64,000 nt of DNA from Verrucomicrobiota bacterium (GTDB lineage: Bacteria; Verrucomicrobiota; Verrucomicrobiia; JADLBR01): positions 1 through 64,000 of the forward strand of contig JAKQKQ010000155.1 in NCBI GenBank assembly GCA_029560585.1, in the 5' to 3' direction. Numbering within the stretch: the stretch's first letter is position 1; the number at the start of each line of letters is the position of its first letter. Made by a program: the position numbers and the translations under genes. Shown in pieces: positions 44,654 through 58,299 of this stretch. The notes beneath the pieces were generated by a model. It worked only from the letters and a program-made list of their open reading frames with translations. It searched no databases and was not told the DNA's origin.

Positions 44654-45574
44654 CTAGTGACAAGAGCGACGATCGGCGGCTTCATTCGCGTGGGTCGTCC
44701 AGCGCTCGAGCGCCTCTGCGAATAGGGGGGCCCGTCTCGTGGCACCGCGCATTCCCCCCTCGGTGGAGACGGAGGGGGTCGGGTTTACGTCCAAGACGAT
44801 CGGCCTGCCGCCCCGCACCAAAAAGTCGATCTTCCCGAAATCCATGCCGAGCTGGCGCCGGAACTCGCGGAGTTCTTCCGGGACCGGAACCGCCTCCCCG
44901 CGGCCGGGGATGCGGTTCGAGGCTTTCACGATCGGTTCGGGCGATAGCGAGCGCGAGCACGTTTCGGCATTGCCGAGGAACGTCCACTTGCGCAGGGCGT
45001 ACAGCCCCTCCTGTTCTTCGGGCTCGAAGGGCTGAACCACGAGATTGGGATTGTGGAAGGCCTGTGGGGGAACCTCGCGCACGGACGCGTAGATCCGATA
45101 GTCGCGCGACGAGAGGCATGGTGTCCATCGCCAGAACATGGCCTCGGTCCATCGTCGGGCGAAGGGCAGCCCGCGAAGTCGCAGCATCAACTCCGAGCGC
45201 AGCCTGCGCCCCGGGATGATCTGCAGCTCGGGCCTGCCGCCGAAATTGAGGTCGGCCTTGAGGATCACCGGACCATTGAAATCTTCGCCGGCGCTCAGCA
45301 CGCGTCCCCCGAGGGCGCGCTTCGAGATGTCGCGCACGCCCCGGTTCAGAACGCGATCATAGCGGACCAAGAAACGGTGGTACTCAGGGGGTCGCACGGT
45401 CAGGTCAACGTGCGGGATGAGGACATCCAGCGGAGGATGCGATCCCAGGCCTTGGAGGATCTCCACCGAATGCCCGCGTTCGCGCGCGGCCGCCAAGATG
45501 AAGTGCAACAGCCAGCGTTCCCTGCGCGAGAAACGAATGTCCCTGGCATGAATCAGGACGCCGATGCGCATCAC
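44654..45574 (-). CDS. ATP-grasp domain protein (A)
   Basis: A 306-residue ATP-grasp enzyme. Seen: N-terminal RIGVLIHARDI, ATP-binding Lys in PVILKADLNFGG, and the metal/ATP ligand region IDFLVRGGRPIVLDVNPTPS (DxNP). These enzymes form amide, thioester or ester bonds by acyl phosphates; they commonly act in peptide or modified-glycan synthesis. It lies 39 bp upstream of the beta-helix gene on the same strand. Divergent from ATP-grasp B. Confidence 0.75.
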   Translation of the reverse strand: MMRIGVLIHARDIRFSRRERWLLHFILAAARERGHSVEILQGLGSHPPLDVLIPHVDLTVRPPEYHRFLVRYDRVLNRGVRDISKRALGGRVLSAGEDFNGPVILKADLNFGGRPELQIIPGRRLRSELMLRLRGLPFARRWTEAMFWRWTPCLSSRDYRIYASVREVPPQAFHNPNLVVQPFEPEEQEGLYALRKWTFLGNAETCSRSLSPEPIVKASNRIPGRGEAVPVPEELREFRRQLGMDFGKIDFLVRGGRPIVLDVNPTPSVSTEGGMRGATRRAPLFAEALERWTTHANEAADRRSCH

Positions 45575-45666
45575 GTATCACCCTGATCTGGCCACTCCGC
45601 TGGTCCTGCCAGATACGCTTGTGGGCTTGATAAATAGGTGAGGCTAGCGCAATTCACAAGGGCCGA

Positions 45667-46872
45667 ATGGATAATGAAGTCCCGATTTTAGGCCGAGTGC
45701 CTCCATTCGAGGAGATTTATGGGGAAGGGGTATACGTGTCCCCCAGGATTTCCTTCGTGTCGCGCGGATGGGCCCGGGGTGATCGGTCGTACGCCGACAT
45801 GTTGTCGGGGCGATTCGCCACCGCGCCCGGTGACGCACCGCGGCTGGTGGCGGCGGCCGCCGTGACCCCGGCCGTGGCGAGATGGTTCCGGCTCGCCGGG
45901 CTGCCCCTGCGCGAGGACTGCGACCAGTTCGCCGACGAGGCGCAGCACGAAATGCACTTGCGCTCCGCCATCGGGAGGGGATGGCGCATCGCCAGCCAGT
46001 TTCCGATCTACGAAGACCACTGGGCGGCCCCCCATGCGCTGAATCCGGCGGATCTCCACTGCCGCCTGGGCGACAAGCGCTCGATCTCGGAACTTGTCCC
46101 CGAAGCATTTCGGCCGCACCGGAGCGTCGTCGAGGGGCCTGATTTCGTGGCGGGAAAAGTGCAACCGCCCATCCCCTGCGCGCTGAAGGTGTCGAGCCGG
46201 TTCTCCGCCACGGGGGGCCACGGGGTTTGCATCTGCCTGACGCCAGACGAAGTGGATGCCGCCCGGCTGGAATTCAAGACGGCCGAGCGAGTCGTGATCG
46301 AAGAGCACCTGCCCTTCGTCAGGACCTTTTGCTTTCATGGCGCGATGATGGGGGGCGGACGGGCCGCGCTGCTCGGGGTGACCGAACAGATCATAGTTAA
46401 CCGGTCCCGCTATAGCGGCGGGTGGCACGGCCCCGGCGTGGATCCATCCGCCGAGGCCTGGCGGGCCGCACGCGAGGTGATGCGACGGGTCGCGGCCACC
46501 GGCTTCCGGGGCATTATCGGGCTCGATCTCGGCGTCCTGCCAGACGGGTCGGTCCGGGCTTTCGATGTCAATCCCCGCGTCAATGCGTCAACCTCGGGCC
46601 TCTGGCTGCAGAGTTTTCGGCCGGACCTCAATACCCGCCACGGGCGCATACAGGCTTGGCGCAGCAGCCTGTCGTGGGAGGCGGTCGGGGCCATTATCGA
46701 GCCGGAGATCAAGGCCGGCCGATGGATGCCGCTCTCGGTCCGCGATCCGGCCCTGAACATCGGTCAGGGCCCGGGGCCGATGATGGCGGGCGTGGCGTTG
46801 GGCGCAACGCGCGAGGAGGCACTCGCCGTGGGCGCGGAGCTGCGGGAACGGCTGAGCGCCGACATTCCGTGA
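45667..46872 (+). CDS. ATP-grasp domain protein (B)
   Basis: A 401-residue protein with an N-terminal pre-ATP-grasp domain (about residues 1-170). ATP-binding Lys and glycine loop are in ALKVSSRFSATGGHGV, then VVIEEHLP and GIIGLDLGVLPDGSVRAFDV with VNPRVN ligands. It resembles PylC/carbamoyl-phosphate-synthase-like ligases. The gene converges with the AsnB-type gene at 6 bp distance and is divergent from ATP-grasp A. Substrate unknown. Confidence 0.75.
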   Translation: MDNEVPILGRVPPFEEIYGEGVYVSPRISFVSRGWARGDRSYADMLSGRFATAPGDAPRLVAAAAVTPAVARWFRLAGLPLREDCDQFADEAQHEMHLRSAIGRGWRIASQFPIYEDHWAAPHALNPADLHCRLGDKRSISELVPEAFRPHRSVVEGPDFVAGKVQPPIPCALKVSSRFSATGGHGVCICLTPDEVDAARLEFKTAERVVIEEHLPFVRTFCFHGAMMGGGRAALLGVTEQIIVNRSRYSGGWHGPGVDPSAEAWRAAREVMRRVAATGFRGIIGLDLGVLPDGSVRAFDVNPRVNASTSGLWLQSFRPDLNTRHGRIQAWRSSLSWEAVGAIIEPEIKAGRWMPLSVRDPALNIGQGPGPMMAGVALGATREEALAVGAELRERLSADIP

Positions 46873-46878
46873 TCGAGT

Positions 46879-48780
46879 TCAAAGCCGGCAGCGCGAAATG
46901 CGCAGCCACGTCTGAAGCGCCAGGGCTGTCATCAAGAGATTGGCCGGCACGAGGGCGGTCGAACGGGCCGTGAGGCGCAATCGTTTGATCGCCGCAGGAT
47001 CGAACAGGCCGGCGGCACGCAAGGCCCCATCGGAGAGTGCGTCCTCGGCCCAGTCGGACAACCGGGGACGGGCCAACCACTCGCGGAACGGGACGCGCAA
47101 CCGAGTTTTGCGCGCGGTGCGAATGATCTCGGGCAGCAGCCCACGGCCCGTTTCCCGCAGCAAGAACTTCTCGGATTGGTTGGGGTGATAGCCGCGCACT
47201 TTGAGTCGGCGCGGAAGGCCGGCGCAATACTCCCAGAGTTCGTGGTCGAGGAATGGGGGCCGGACCTCAACGGAATGGGCCATGCCCATCTTGTCGAGGA
47301 TCGTGTTGGTTGAATCAGGCAGTCGCGTGCGAGACTGGAGCCAGAGGATTTGCTGAAATGGATCGCGATGCCCGGCCTCGGCGACCCACTGGAACCAGGG
47401 GGCCAGGAGTTCGCGCATGGGACGACGCTCGATGGCCGCCCGGAGATCCGGCGCGAGGAGGCTCAAGGTCGGGGCCTTGGGGCCCGCCGCACTTCGGTCG
47501 AGATACCAGTAGGCGACGGCCTTGGGATCGGTGCGGCCTCCTTCCTCGAACTGTCGGGCGACCTCGACGAATCGCTCGACCCATGGGTGTCGCCCGGACG
47601 AGGCCAGCTGGAGCAGGAAGGGCCATCGGTTCCAGAGGCCGCTCCGGATCGACCTGTTCCAGTGCCATGCATAGCCGCCGAGCAGTTCGTCGGCACCCTC
47701 TCCGGTGAGGACCACCTTCAGGCCGAGTTCCTTGCAGGCGCGGAATATATGGAAACCCGCCATGAACGTGGGCCGCGTGAGGGGCTCCTCGAGCGAATCG
47801 AGCACGGCCGGATACCCGTCCATCAAATCTTGGCGAAAATGAACCAGGTGCGTTTCAAGGCCAAGCGCCGCGGCGCAGGCCGACGCGCGCTGCGTCTCGT
47901 CGTAGGCCTCGACATCAAAGCCGAGGGTGACCAGTGGAAATCGTTGTGGCAGGAGTCGGCGCATCAGTGCCGCGATCGTGGCGGAATCGATGCCGCCGGA
48001 GAGCAGGGAGCCCACCGGGACATCCGCCATCAGGTGGCTTGAGACCGCCCGCTCGAGCCGCTGCCGGAACTCCTCGTGGGCGCCGCGGTGCCGGGCGGGT
48101 GCGTACGAAAGTCGCCAATAGGGGCGGATCTCGATGCGCCCCTCGCGAATGACGAGGTATTGTGCGGCGGGCAGTTTGCGAATTCCGGCGTATAGGGTGC
48201 GCGGCGCGGGCGTGTAGCCCAGCCGCAGAAAGAGGGCCAGGGCGTCGATATCGATGCGGCGATCTGGATTTGCCATCAGGAGGAGGGGCCGGATCTCAGA
48301 GGCGAAGTGAAGCCGCCCGTCGTGCTCCAGATAGTAAAGGGGCTTGATACCCATGCGGTCCCTCGCGAGGCAGAGGGATTTCCGGCGCCCATCCCAGATC
48401 GCGAAGGCGAACATGCCGCGCAATCGCTCAAGCAGCCCGTCCAACCCCCAGGCCTCATAACCATGTGGCAGGATCTCCGCATCCGAGTGGCTGTGGAACC
48501 GATGCCCGTCCGCTTCCAGCTCACGGCGCAATTCGGCATGGTTGTATATTTCGCCATTGTGGATGGCCCGGATCGTGCCGTCCTCGCTCGCGGCAGGCTG
48601 GTGGCCCCCCGCCAAATCCACGATGCTCAGGCGCCGGACGCCAAGGGCGATGGTGCCTTCGAAGTGAGTGCCGTCCTCGTCGGGGCCCCGGTGTGTCAGT
48701 GTCGCCAACGCGGCACGGAATTTATCCCGCACAACGGGCGCATCGTTGGTCAGACCCAGGGCCCCGATGATCCCGCACAT
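46879..48780 (-). CDS. asnB: Asparagine synthase (glutamine-hydrolysing) type amidotransferase
   Basis: A 633-residue two-domain amidotransferase. Cys2 is the glutaminase nucleophile (MCGIIGALG), with the usual RLSIVDLAGGHQP and NGEIYNHAELR. The PP-loop ATP site is SGGIDSATIAAL and the C-terminal domain includes GEGADELLGGY. The length and this pattern fit both true AsnB and the amidotransferases of polysaccharide loci, so another acceptor than aspartate is possible. It is surrounded by ATP-grasp and Mur-ligase-type genes. Confidence 0.9.
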   Translation of the reverse strand: MCGIIGALGLTNDAPVVRDKFRAALATLTHRGPDEDGTHFEGTIALGVRRLSIVDLAGGHQPAASEDGTIRAIHNGEIYNHAELRRELEADGHRFHSHSDAEILPHGYEAWGLDGLLERLRGMFAFAIWDGRRKSLCLARDRMGIKPLYYLEHDGRLHFASEIRPLLLMANPDRRIDIDALALFLRLGYTPAPRTLYAGIRKLPAAQYLVIREGRIEIRPYWRLSYAPARHRGAHEEFRQRLERAVSSHLMADVPVGSLLSGGIDSATIAALMRRLLPQRFPLVTLGFDVEAYDETQRASACAAALGLETHLVHFRQDLMDGYPAVLDSLEEPLTRPTFMAGFHIFRACKELGLKVVLTGEGADELLGGYAWHWNRSIRSGLWNRWPFLLQLASSGRHPWVERFVEVARQFEEGGRTDPKAVAYWYLDRSAAGPKAPTLSLLAPDLRAAIERRPMRELLAPWFQWVAEAGHRDPFQQILWLQSRTRLPDSTNTILDKMGMAHSVEVRPPFLDHELWEYCAGLPRRLKVRGYHPNQSEKFLLRETGRGLLPEIIRTARKTRLRVPFREWLARPRLSDWAEDALSDGALRAAGLFDPAAIKRLRLTARSTALVPANLLMTALALQTWLRISRCRL

Positions 48781-48960
48781 GCGCTCTTGCCCTCAGGTCG
48801 GGGCGACCGGCCGCACGATACGGACCCCTTCGGTACCGTCTGGTAAAACCATCTCCCCAGTGTATTAAACGTGAGATTCGGGAGCAAGGTCGCCCGCCAT
48901 TATCAGGTCAATGCGCAACCACATCTATAAGAAAGACAGGAGACGCGCGGGGGAGGGCCG

Positions 48961-50430
48961 ATGAGCGAAGGGCCGCGGGGCACCGCGTTTCTCTCGGAAG
49001 CATGGGCCGCGATCCAGGGGGGCGACGTGCCGCGTGCACTGCGCCACATCGCTGAGGCCTACGGGCACATAGGGCGCTGGAGCGATGGCGGGCAACGGCT
49101 CCCCATCGGATGGCCGGAGGCCGACCGCGTGATTGCCGCCGCGGCCGACATCGTGCGCGCCGCGGCCGGGCCCCCTGCGCCGATCGCCGGGGAGGAGCGC
49201 AACGACGCGATATTGTTTTCGCGCTGGACCAATTACGGTGGTCATCGCTTCGCGGCGACCGACATCCTGCGTGCGTCGCCCGCGCGCAACAAATATGCAT
49301 TTGTCATCCATCCGGGCAAAACCGAGTCATCCAGAGAAAAGATGGCCTTGCGGCTCGACATTCCGGCGGATTGCTTGGAGGTGGTTCCGGCCGAGGTGCG
49401 GGACAAGCCCTGGGAATGGTTGCCGGCGAGACTCGCGGCCCGCGGCTGTTCCCGGCTTTTCATCGTGCATGAGACCTACAGGCCGGGCGTCCTCGTGGCC
49501 GCCCTTGTCTCGTCATGCGCCGGCATTTACATCTTGCATCACATTGATGCCAAGCCATGCAGCGGCCTGTATCTGCCCCGTGCCAAAGTCGTCGATCTGA
49601 CCCCTTTCTGTTATCATTACTCTCGGCGCAATCTGGCCATCAGTCCCATCTATTTGCCGCTGGTGTCGGAGGCTCCCACCGGAGAGAGGCCCGCATTCTG
49701 GGCGAGTGGCGCGTTGTGCACCGCCACGTGCGGGCGCGAGGAGAAATTCGAGTCTGGCAGAGGTTTCCCCTACGCCGCGGTGGTTGCGGAGAGATTGCGG
49801 CGATTTGGCGGCCGGCACGTGCACATGGGCCATCTCTCCGAGGGGGCGCTTGAGATGATCCGCGTGGCGCTGCGGCGGGCCGGCGTCGAACCGGGCCTAT
49901 TCGAGTACTTATCGCGCGTGCCGAATCTACCCGCCGCCCTCTGGGCCAACCGGGTGGATCTCTTTATCGCATCTTTCCCGTTGGGCGGCGCCCGGACGAC
50001 CATCGACGTGATGGCTTCGGGCACCCCGGCCGTCGTCAACGTCCGAAGCCCCCAGGAGCGCCCTTACGGACTGGGCCTCCGCCCGCCGGGCACCGCAGAA
50101 TGGTCGACGCCCGAGGACCTCTGGGCAATCCTGGGCTCGGCGGACCCGGGCTCGCTTGCCGAGCGATCGCGGCTTGCCCGCGCGTATTTCGAGCAACACC
50201 ACAGCTTCAGCGTGTTGGCTGAGGCGCTCGCGAGGCCGGAGATCGTTGGCGTGGAGCCGCCACCGCTTCCCGATGACTCGCCATTCCCGTCCCCTCAGAA
50301 CGCTCTTTGCCAGGTGTTATCGGATGTGGCGTGGTTCCGGCGGAGCGAAAGAGAACTGCGCGCAAAGGTCGGTGCGCTCGAGGAGGCGATCGCCCGGAGC
50401 ATCAAATGGCCGAGGTGGTTGAAGCGCTGA
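48961..50430 (+). CDS. Putative glycosyltransferase (GT-B fold)
   Basis: A 489-residue cytoplasmic protein without signal peptide. The C-terminal half has a GT-B donor-site pattern (LFIASFPLGGARTTIDVMASGTPAVVN), similar to the acidic-loop region of GT4/GT41 enzymes, where the sugar nucleotide binds. The N-terminal 80 residues are helical. It follows divergently from AsnB with a 180-bp spacer. Family-level assignment only; no donor is implied. Confidence 0.6.
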   Translation: MSEGPRGTAFLSEAWAAIQGGDVPRALRHIAEAYGHIGRWSDGGQRLPIGWPEADRVIAAAADIVRAAAGPPAPIAGEERNDAILFSRWTNYGGHRFAATDILRASPARNKYAFVIHPGKTESSREKMALRLDIPADCLEVVPAEVRDKPWEWLPARLAARGCSRLFIVHETYRPGVLVAALVSSCAGIYILHHIDAKPCSGLYLPRAKVVDLTPFCYHYSRRNLAISPIYLPLVSEAPTGERPAFWASGALCTATCGREEKFESGRGFPYAAVVAERLRRFGGRHVHMGHLSEGALEMIRVALRRAGVEPGLFEYLSRVPNLPAALWANRVDLFIASFPLGGARTTIDVMASGTPAVVNVRSPQERPYGLGLRPPGTAEWSTPEDLWAILGSADPGSLAERSRLARAYFEQHHSFSVLAEALARPEIVGVEPPPLPDDSPFPSPQNALCQVLSDVAWFRRSERELRAKVGALEEAIARSIKWPRWLKR

Positions 50431-50763
50431 AGATTCCCGCAGCCGTGAGGCAGGCAATCCTATCCGCCGGCGCACGATGGCGCCCAGGGCTCTTGGTTCG
50501 CTCGACCGAAGCCGTTGGAGTCCAGGCTTTAGCCTGTTGGGTGCCCGATTCAGCCTAAAGGCTGAACTGCAACAGGTTGCTGTCGAATAACCAAAAGCCC
50601 TGCGATGGTGCCGTAGTCCCACACCGGCGGACTTTGCAAACTCCGCGCGGCTGCTAGCGTACCCCTTGGTCGGAGACGCACGGCGCCATGTTCTGGCCTC
50701 CGAGAGACCCGCGGGGAGGCTGTCGGCGGTCATGGCTGTCAGGAGCAGACCGCTGGCCGACTG
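50431..50763. other. Intergenic region with stem repeats
   Basis: Two neighbouring stems: CAGGCT-TT-AGCCTG at 50523-50536 and TTCAGCCT-AA-AGGCTGAA at 50549-50566, which look like a REP-type pair. A partial copy of the second repeat family is at 50446-50490. I see no gene. Confidence 0.6.
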
Positions 50764-52044
50764 GTGCCTGCATCGTGGCGCGGATGGCAGCAAGTGAAGA
50801 AGTGGACTTCTCGTATCTGGTTCCGGATGACGTCATGGCGTTTTCGCCGGAAGGTGCTGGGCCTGAAGGCGCTCTTGTGGCGGCGGATGCTCTTCAGGAC
50901 CACGTTCATTGCCATCACCGGCAGCGTGGGCAAGACGACGGCCAAGGAATGCCTTGGGGGAATCCTGTCAAAACGATATCGGGCGGTGAAGACGCGCTAC
51001 AACCGGAATGGGGCCCGCGGGGTGCCACGGACCCTTCTCACGGTCAAACGGCGACATCGCTATGCGGTCATCGAAATAGGCACGGAAAGGCCCGGCCAGA
51101 TCGAGATGTCGGCCAAGTTTGTGCGTCCGCGGATCGCCATCATCCTGACGGTTGCCAGGACACACACCAACAACTTCAAGACCCTTGAGGACACCGCGGC
51201 CGAAAAGGCGCGACTTCTGGATTTTCTGCCGCCGCGGGGCATCGCGATACTGAACGCCGAGGATCCTCGGGTGCTCGCCATGGCGTCGAAATGCCGATGC
51301 ACGGTGAAGACATTTGGACGGTCGCCGGGAGCCGACATCTGGGCCGAGGAGATATCTTCGAAATGGCCCTCCCGGCTGATTTTCCGGGCGCACACGGCGT
51401 CGGAAACCGCATGGGTCAGGACAAGCCTGGTGGGGGAGCAATGGGTGAACTCCGTCCTGGCTGCCCTGCTGGCGGCGCAGTGCTGTGGGGTTTCGCTGGG
51501 CGACGCGGCCGCGCTTGTGGCAGATGTTCAGCCTTTTCTGGCAAGGATGCAACCGGTGTCCCTGCCGTGCGGGGCGACTCTTTTGCGCGACGAGGCGACA
51601 GCCTCGATCGACACCGTGGACCCTGCCCTGAATGTGCTGAGGGATGCGAAGGCGGAGCGGCGGGTGCTGGTCATCAGCGACACTTCCGATTCTGGCGAAA
51701 GGACTCGATTTAGACAGAAGGAGCTGGGGCGGGTGGCCGCTGAGATATCGGAATTCGCCGTATTTCTCGGGGACTCCAGACACCACGCCATGAAGGCGGC
51801 CCTGGCGGGGGGCATGAGCGCGGACTGCGTCCGGGGCTTCGACTCGATCAAGGAGGCAGTCGAGTTCCTCAAGTCAGAACTGCGCAGCGGGGATCTGGTG
51901 CTGTTGAAGGGGCGCAGCTGCGATCATCTGGAGAGGATCTATCTCGCGCAACTGGGGCCGATCGGGTGCTGGAAGGTGAAATGCCGCGAAAGGACGCTGT
52001 GCGACATGTGCCAGCATCTGCGGCCGGAGGAGAAGACGCTTTGA
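50764..52044 (+). CDS. Mur-ligase-like ATP-dependent amide ligase (MurF-like)
   Basis: A 426-residue protein. The P-loop is AITGSVGKTTAKE, followed by NRNGARGVPRTLL and EIGTERPGQIEMSAKFVRPR, then ILTVARTHTNNF and ILNAEDPR, all in the order of the central Mur-ligase domain; the C-terminal domain is short. It lacks the N-terminal UDP-binding domain of real MurF. Such truncated Mur ligases join amino acids to non-UDP acceptors in other systems. Start uncertain: GTG 50764, GTG 50794 or ATG 50827. Confidence 0.75.
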   Translation: MPASWRGWQQVKKWTSRIWFRMTSWRFRRKVLGLKALLWRRMLFRTTFIAITGSVGKTTAKECLGGILSKRYRAVKTRYNRNGARGVPRTLLTVKRRHRYAVIEIGTERPGQIEMSAKFVRPRIAIILTVARTHTNNFKTLEDTAAEKARLLDFLPPRGIAILNAEDPRVLAMASKCRCTVKTFGRSPGADIWAEEISSKWPSRLIFRAHTASETAWVRTSLVGEQWVNSVLAALLAAQCCGVSLGDAAALVADVQPFLARMQPVSLPCGATLLRDEATASIDTVDPALNVLRDAKAERRVLVISDTSDSGERTRFRQKELGRVAAEISEFAVFLGDSRHHAMKAALAGGMSADCVRGFDSIKEAVEFLKSELRSGDLVLLKGRSCDHLERIYLAQLGPIGCWKVKCRERTLCDMCQHLRPEEKTL

Positions 52045-58126: not shown

Positions 58127-58211
58127 ACGGGGGCGGGCTCAGCCGTGAATGCGCCACGAGCCTGCCATCTTTCGGTCTGTCCCCCCTCGCGCCGCCGCCG
58201 GCGCCCAGAGG

Positions 58212-58299
58212 CGCCGCATCATTCATGTGGAAACTCGACACCCACTGCCGCCTGACACAGGCGGCCCACAAGATTTGTGGGGCGTCTCTGCGAGACGCC
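58212..58299 (-). repeat. Three-stem repeat, subfamily B, copy 5
   Basis: Read on the minus strand: GGCGTCTC/GAGACGCC, CCCACAA/TTGTGGG and GCCGCCTG/CAGGCGGC, then a tail shared with copy 4. Relative to copies 1-3, stem 2 has changed at the same pair on both arms, so pairing is kept. Confidence 0.8.

Follow-up and report, generated by a model that had tools for sequence, protein, structure and literature searches.

Five enzyme genes in a verrucomicrobial stretch

The window analyzed here is a stretch of 64,000 nucleotides from a Verrucomicrobiota bacterium (contig JAKQKQ010000155.1). Between positions 44654 and 52044 (7.4 kb), it carries five enzyme genes, which we call A to E (Table 1): two genes assigned to the ATP-grasp ligases (A and B), an AsnB-type amidotransferase (C), a GT-B glycosyltransferase-like gene (D), and a Mur-type ligase (E). 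An earlier note had described these genes as a side-by-side set and proposed that they build an amidated or peptide-bearing glycan or small molecule. The description was borne out: the five open reading frames (ORFs) were found at the positions given, and the family assignments agreed with AlphaFold models and Foldseek searches for A (ATP-grasp) and D (GT-B) and with Pfam and NCBIfam for B, C, and E, including the absence of a uridine diphosphate (UDP)-binding domain from the Mur-like protein. The strand order is −, +, −, +, +. Since the strands alternate, the five genes cannot form one transcript or operon.

Genes A and B resemble ATP-grasp ligases

Gene A matched no Pfam family and no NCBIfam model. 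A sequence search of the PDB with a gene A profile also returned nothing meaningful, and only the fold search placed it. Its AlphaFold model (predicted local distance difference test [pLDDT] score of 92.9) shows an ATP-grasp fold. Foldseek returned 194 PDB matches at E ≤ 0.001, headed by Ddl, DcsG, and RimK, and the E values for Ddl, RimK, DcsG, and LysX/ArgX were about 1e-8 to 1e-7. In an alignment of 34 family members, K85, K106, E186, D250, D262, and N264 were invariant, and the ATP/Mg residue set of ATP-grasp enzymes (two Lys, Glu, Asp, and Asp-x-Asn) is present in gene A. Judged by its modeled structure, gene A belongs to the ATP-grasp superfamily. Like gene A itself, the 34 members matched no Pfam family, save for two single matches at chance level. 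The profile search detected 58 loci in Verrucomicrobiota, Planctomycetota, Proteobacteria, Acidobacteria, Chloroflexi, and Bacteroidota; the plasmid search revealed no A homologs.

Gene B showed a weak match to ATP-grasp_3 in Pfam, and its nearest solved structure is an ATP-grasp protein (PDB 7r8p; E value of 1.8e-19). The NCBIfam model of the L-aspartate–L-methionine ligase LdmS (NF047900) aligned with residues 15 to 360, which is nearly the full length, but the score of 134 bits was below the cut-off of 475. The same model was matched by all 13 B-family members, and K137, K174, E212, D287, D300, N302, and R304 were invariant in the aligned members, all of which retain the catalytic residues of ATP-grasp enzymes. 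As far as its sequence tells, gene B is distantly LdmS-like. Related genes were seldom found. A search of 113 relatives with B detected the congener described below and one weak match only, and none of 384 other genomes sampled from the class of Pseudorhodobacter (G356) contained B at E ≤ 1e-20. Five distant matches were obtained in the plasmid search, none of them shown with A. Unlike B in the window, the LdmS-like gene on a Staphylococcus gallinarum plasmid has no A gene beside it. On a Gemmobacter plasmid, a distant B homolog adjoins a GNAT gene (Acetyltransf_6) and exopolysaccharide genes, with no A annotated beside it.

A and B form a conserved pair

Genes A and B are adjacent in 14 genomes, two of which belong to the genus of the window. 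In the 12 pairs outside the genus, which stem from Alpha-, Beta-, and Gammaproteobacteria, Geobacteraceae, and Acidobacteria, A is always located directly 5′ of B on the same strand. The distance from A to B was −10 to +37 bp in the 11 measured pairs, with several overlaps of 4 bp, and the 12th pair (L105) is alike. In the window, A and B are divergent. The same divergent order was found in G001 (Verrucomicrobiia bacterium isolate SJ186; L070), the only congener among the genomes searched, where 108 bp on contig C12 separate the aligned coding ends.

The pair was detected from either side. Among the 58 loci found with A alone, B adjoins A in 12. When 13 of these genomes were searched with B alone, 11 B genes were detected, and each of them (11 of 11) had A adjacent. 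In one genome (G364), this search yielded an extra B gene that was absent from the A-B loci found earlier, with A directly upstream. The distance matrices of A and B were correlated (r = 0.95 for 13 pairs, a value that partly reflects shared phylogeny), and none of 5,000 permutations was as high. On the A tree, the B-paired genes were clustered, with 3 changes versus 6.7 upon shuffling (2 of 500 shuffles were as low), a test that is inflated by the near-identical pairs L099/L103, L101/L125, and L105/L107.

The wider neighbors of the A-B pairs differ from genome to genome (RNase HII, an ATP synthase-type ATPase, RmuC, phasin, and GARS). That these neighbors are unrelated suggests that A-B is a free-standing two-gene unit which moves between genomes. 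Of the whole five-gene stretch, it is the A-B adjacency alone that was shown to exceed chance. We found no published account of the pair in the open literature searched, the coverage of which was incomplete.

In a Geobacteraceae locus, A, B, and a TupA-like ATP-grasp gene follow each other on one strand, giving three consecutive ATP-grasp genes. TupA-like ATP-grasp enzymes are known from teichuronopeptide systems and from Campylobacter capsule amidation, and a TupA-like gene also lies beside an E homolog in genome G770. However, neither A nor B matches PF14305, and no TupA-like gene is among the five genes of the window.

Genes C, D, and E are not linked to A-B elsewhere

The DNA of the window between 38.9 and 58.9 kb was compared with congener G001. 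Counterparts were located on contigs C33, C12, C481, C548, C193, and C265, with nothing corresponding to C. Only A and B stayed together as neighbors, while D and E were each found apart. Homologs of C, D, or E were detected near none of the 58 A-family loci elsewhere, and none of the relatives contained the full five-gene set. The earlier note had predicted that unrelated genomes would contain the same five families together and had named scattering in relatives as the outcome that would refute it. The recurrence was not observed, and the scattering was, over at least six contigs of the congener. We therefore rejected the five-gene pathway as a conserved system. What stands of the proposed gene-set conservation is the A-B unit, which is kept across phyla; no link of C, D, or E to it was seen outside the window.

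Gene C combines Asn_synthase and GATase domains and scored 417.8 bits against TIGR01536 (cut-off of 267.1), as expected of a glutamine-dependent AsnB-type enzyme. The alignment of C with the model of the XrtA/PEP-CTERM exopolysaccharide amidotransferase (TIGR03108) runs from one end to the other (model positions 1 to 625 of 628), yet its score of 413 bits lies far under the cut-off of 817. AsnB homologs were present at E ≤ 1e-60 in 48 of the 113 relatives. Congener G001 has no ortholog; the best homolog there is 37% identical.

Gene D matched no Pfam family and no NCBIfam model. Foldseek with its AlphaFold model (pLDDT of 79, moderate confidence) retrieved O-GlcNAc transferases, SPINDLY, HMW1C-type proteins, GT4-like enzymes, and PimB′, all of the GT-B type. 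The model thus places D in the GT-B fold, nearest to the GT41/O-GlcNAc transferases and their relatives, although the identity to the best matches, the GT41/O-GlcNAc transferases and HMW1C-type proteins, is only about 9 to 16%. Gene D is a second copy: the other copy, 61% identical, is located on contig C256 of the same genome, where it is clustered with genes for a DegT aminotransferase and a GNAT; this cluster also occurs on contig C481 of G001.

Gene E contains Mur_ligase_M and Mur_ligase_C domains only. Its P-loop is preceded by about 51 residues, compared to 116 to 132 in the measurable MurF sequences, so that the N-terminal UDP-substrate domain is missing, and its score against the MurF model TIGR01143 (220.8 bits) was below the cut-off of 288.6. 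The P-loop and the conserved residues H134, E147, and K148 are kept. Gene E shares the P-loop and the middle and C-terminal domains with MurF and with Mur-type ligases that are free-standing, for instance the ligase portion of cyanophycin synthetase. It differs from MurF by the lack of the UDP-binding domain, by its separate clade, and by a C-terminal four-cysteine (Cys4) tail; in addition, the MurF acceptor motif, YNANP, is replaced. Together with homologs in genomes G001, G016, and G091, E forms a clade apart from the housekeeping MurF (support 100/98). All four members lack the N-terminal domain of MurF and have the invariant Cys4 tail (C-x4-C-x5/6-C-x2-C), which likely binds zinc. Further E homologs scoring well above MurF were found in G770, G854, and G849.

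In G016, E and an AsnB gene overlap (order GNAT-AsnB-E on one strand), and in G770, E follows the TupA-like gene and precedes a GNAT gene. No neighbor of such a kind was found in G001, G091, G854, and G849. These settings are a weak hint that the E clade works with other amide-forming enzymes in a combinatorial assembly. We rejected C-E as a conserved pair, since the AsnB of G016 (at about rank 21 among the matches) is not specifically related to C and the four other E-clade loci lack AsnB.

These observations also bear on whether A to E, in this lineage only, were assembled into a pathway for an amidated or peptide-bearing glycan or a glycosylated small molecule. Five compatible activities are packed in 7.4 kb, E-clade ligases occur beside AsnB or beside TupA-like and GNAT genes, the Geobacteraceae pair adjoins a TupA-like gene, and a TupA-like domain amidates the glucuronic acid of the Campylobacter capsule (PMC11800379). 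However, the five genes are not a set in the congener, where C is missing altogether; their strands alternate; no other A-B pair has homologs of C, D, or E nearby; and E occurs without any of the other four genes in G001, G091, G854, and G849. We consider such a pathway unlikely, and direct support for an amidated glycan was absent.

Surroundings of the locus and further settings of gene A

The five-gene stretch is flanked by a polysaccharide lyase-like gene, a gene for an FAD oxidoreductase, and others, among which the Pfam and NCBIfam scan revealed no recognizable biosynthetic cluster. The GC content is even throughout the region, so nothing there points to recently acquired foreign DNA or a chimeric join. 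The promoter and terminator scan yielded no more matches than expected by chance. Downstream, a short GC-rich stretch is a dispersed repeat, 86 to 91% identical to sequences on about a dozen G001 contigs; no Rfam match was found in the surrounding 28 kb.

A-family genes lacking B are often adjoined by an S-adenosylmethionine (SAM) methyltransferase-like gene, perhaps a second two-gene arrangement. These neighbors include one protein cluster present in nine loci, mostly of Mesorhizobium, and another that matches no Pfam family and is present in two. In a metagenome-assembled genome (MAG) of Pseudomonadota, five A paralogs stand in tandem, some 4.4 kb away from an A-B pair, and four A paralogs are closely clustered at another locus (L075). 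The neighbors of an A homolog in Flavobacteriales are genes for a 2OG-Fe dioxygenase, an HMGL-like protein, a 2-hydroxyacid dehydrogenase, and PP-loop-like proteins, a setting which looks like small-molecule biosynthesis. The PP-loop-like proteins, of an unnamed family, flank the A homolog in three loci (L120, L117, and L121). HMGL-like and 2OG-Fe dioxygenase genes are present in L120 and L117, and the dehydrogenase gene also in L120.

Table 1. Coordinates of the five genes and of related features in the window and at other loci (L numbers)
Feature	Position	Strand	Details
Gene A, ATP-grasp ligase of a family without Pfam or NCBIfam model	window 44654–45574	−	306 aa; AlphaFold/Foldseek fold, invariant residues
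Divergent A/B spacer, 92 bp	window 45575–45666	.	Arrangement kept in congener G001
Gene B, LdmS-like (L-aspartate–L-methionine ligase-like) ATP-grasp ligase	window 45667–46872	+	401 aa; NF047900, PDB 7r8p, invariant residues
Gene C, glutamine-dependent AsnB-type amidotransferase, exopolysaccharide/XrtA type	window 46879–48780	−	633 aa; Pfam domains; outside the conserved unit
Gene D, GT-B protein, GT41/O-GlcNAc transferase-like	window 48961–50430	+	489 aa; Foldseek on AlphaFold model
Gene E, MurF-derived ligase without UDP-binding N-terminal domain	window 50764–52044	+	426 aa; Pfam; C-terminal Cys4 (C402, C407, C413, C416)
E-clade Mur-type ligases with Cys4 tail	window 50764–52044; L054 8820–10121; L055 9115–10473; L046 12004–13275; L198 9355–10671		Cys4 alignment covers the first four loci
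A, B, and TupA-like gene, Geobacteraceae	L071 489–3607		One strand
Distant B homolog, Gemmobacter plasmid	L204 4746–8210
A (no B) with SAM methyltransferase-like neighbor	L072 358–2094; L073 9119–10852; L082 9002–10789; L074 4416–6141; L085 9046–10780; L088 9128–10843; L100 9057–10822; L126 6522–8424
Five tandem A paralogs, Pseudomonadota MAG	L122 7348–11714		Same contig: L201 15045–19411
A homolog flanked by PP-loop-like genes, Flavobacteriales/Bacteroidia	L120 2417–10400; L117 8546–15009; L121 1508–3708
Dispersed GC-rich repeat	window 58186–58235

Discussion

We read the stretch as a conserved A-B cassette beside three genes, C, D, and E, that are unlinked to it elsewhere, with A and B acting successively as ATP-grasp ligases on one small peptide-like amide; we give this reading a probability of about two in three. 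One of the two ligases would convert a carboxylate into an acyl phosphate and couple it to an amino group, yielding a dipeptide-like intermediate. The second would then add a third unit, so that a small peptide or amide is made from ordinary cell metabolites. Related molecules could be used or decorated by C, through glutamine-dependent amidation; by D, through transfer of a glycosyl group; and by E, through a MurF-type amide ligation with a substrate not borne on UDP-MurNAc.

That the product is probably a small peptide, and that A and B would act consecutively on it, we infer by analogy with PnaC and PnaB. In the biosynthesis of phosphonoalamides, one of these two ATP-grasp ligases forms dipeptides, to which the other attaches the third unit (PMC11867202). 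In both cases, two different ATP-grasp ligases are encoded in one locus, and PnaC and PnaB work without a ribosomal template. The likeness is one of arrangement rather than of sequence comparison, and, unlike with PnaC/PnaB, the neighbors of the scanned A-B pairs included no phosphonate genes.

Paired ATP-grasp ligases are also typical of microviridin loci, and the gene A fold matches AMdnB and MdnC in Foldseek as well. A and B might accordingly mature a genetically encoded, graspetide-like peptide whose small precursor gene was overlooked; some graspetide-type loci have no recognizable precursor nearby (PMC8939145). In a comparison of 13 A-B loci, however, every match between distant loci fell within the coding sequence of A or B, and no small ORF elsewhere was common to them, although a lineage-specific precursor would escape this comparison. 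Furthermore, no transporter or double-glycine peptidase was found among the sampled neighbors, and the LdmS-like B is related to a ligase of free amino acids. Given the lack of a shared precursor ORF, we rejected this explanation as quite improbable. Equally doubtful is an activity like that of RimK or LysX, in which amino acids are attached to a protein, carrier, or macromolecule end. RimK and LysX/ArgX do rank with the best structural matches to A, but no gene for a LysW-type carrier protein and no ribosomal gene recurs beside the pairs, and a dipeptide ligase model matches B over nearly its whole length.

Several points weigh against successive action of A and B on one peptide-like amide. 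Sequence does not separate a peptide ligase from an enzyme catalyzing another ATP-grasp reaction, for A or for B. In 46 of the 58 A-family loci, B is not adjacent, and B-like proteins occur without an annotated A on the Staphylococcus and Gemmobacter plasmids, so that each enzyme can work alone. The identity of only 22 to 28% between B of the window and B of the pairs outside the genus means that the product may differ between lineages, and the divergent arrangement is confined to the genus of the window. The shared phylogeny and the near-identical pairs mentioned above temper the distance correlation and the clustering, respectively.

The locus is also a caution: an eye-catching neighborhood of five genes should not be read as a single pathway. 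A more far-reaching interpretation is possible, though we hold it only tentatively. A-B would be a rare yet widespread peptide-ligase cassette, so far undescribed, for a new class of small peptides or amides, and E would found a family of Cys4-tailed, UDP-independent Mur ligases that combine with AsnB, TupA-like enzymes, and A-B in lineage-specific pathways. In several bacterial groups, an ATP-grasp family without any Pfam or NCBIfam model is coupled with an LdmS-like ligase in a minimal unit of two genes. With two genes, no precursor, and no large cluster, A-B may offer a compact source of a new metabolite that can be tested directly.

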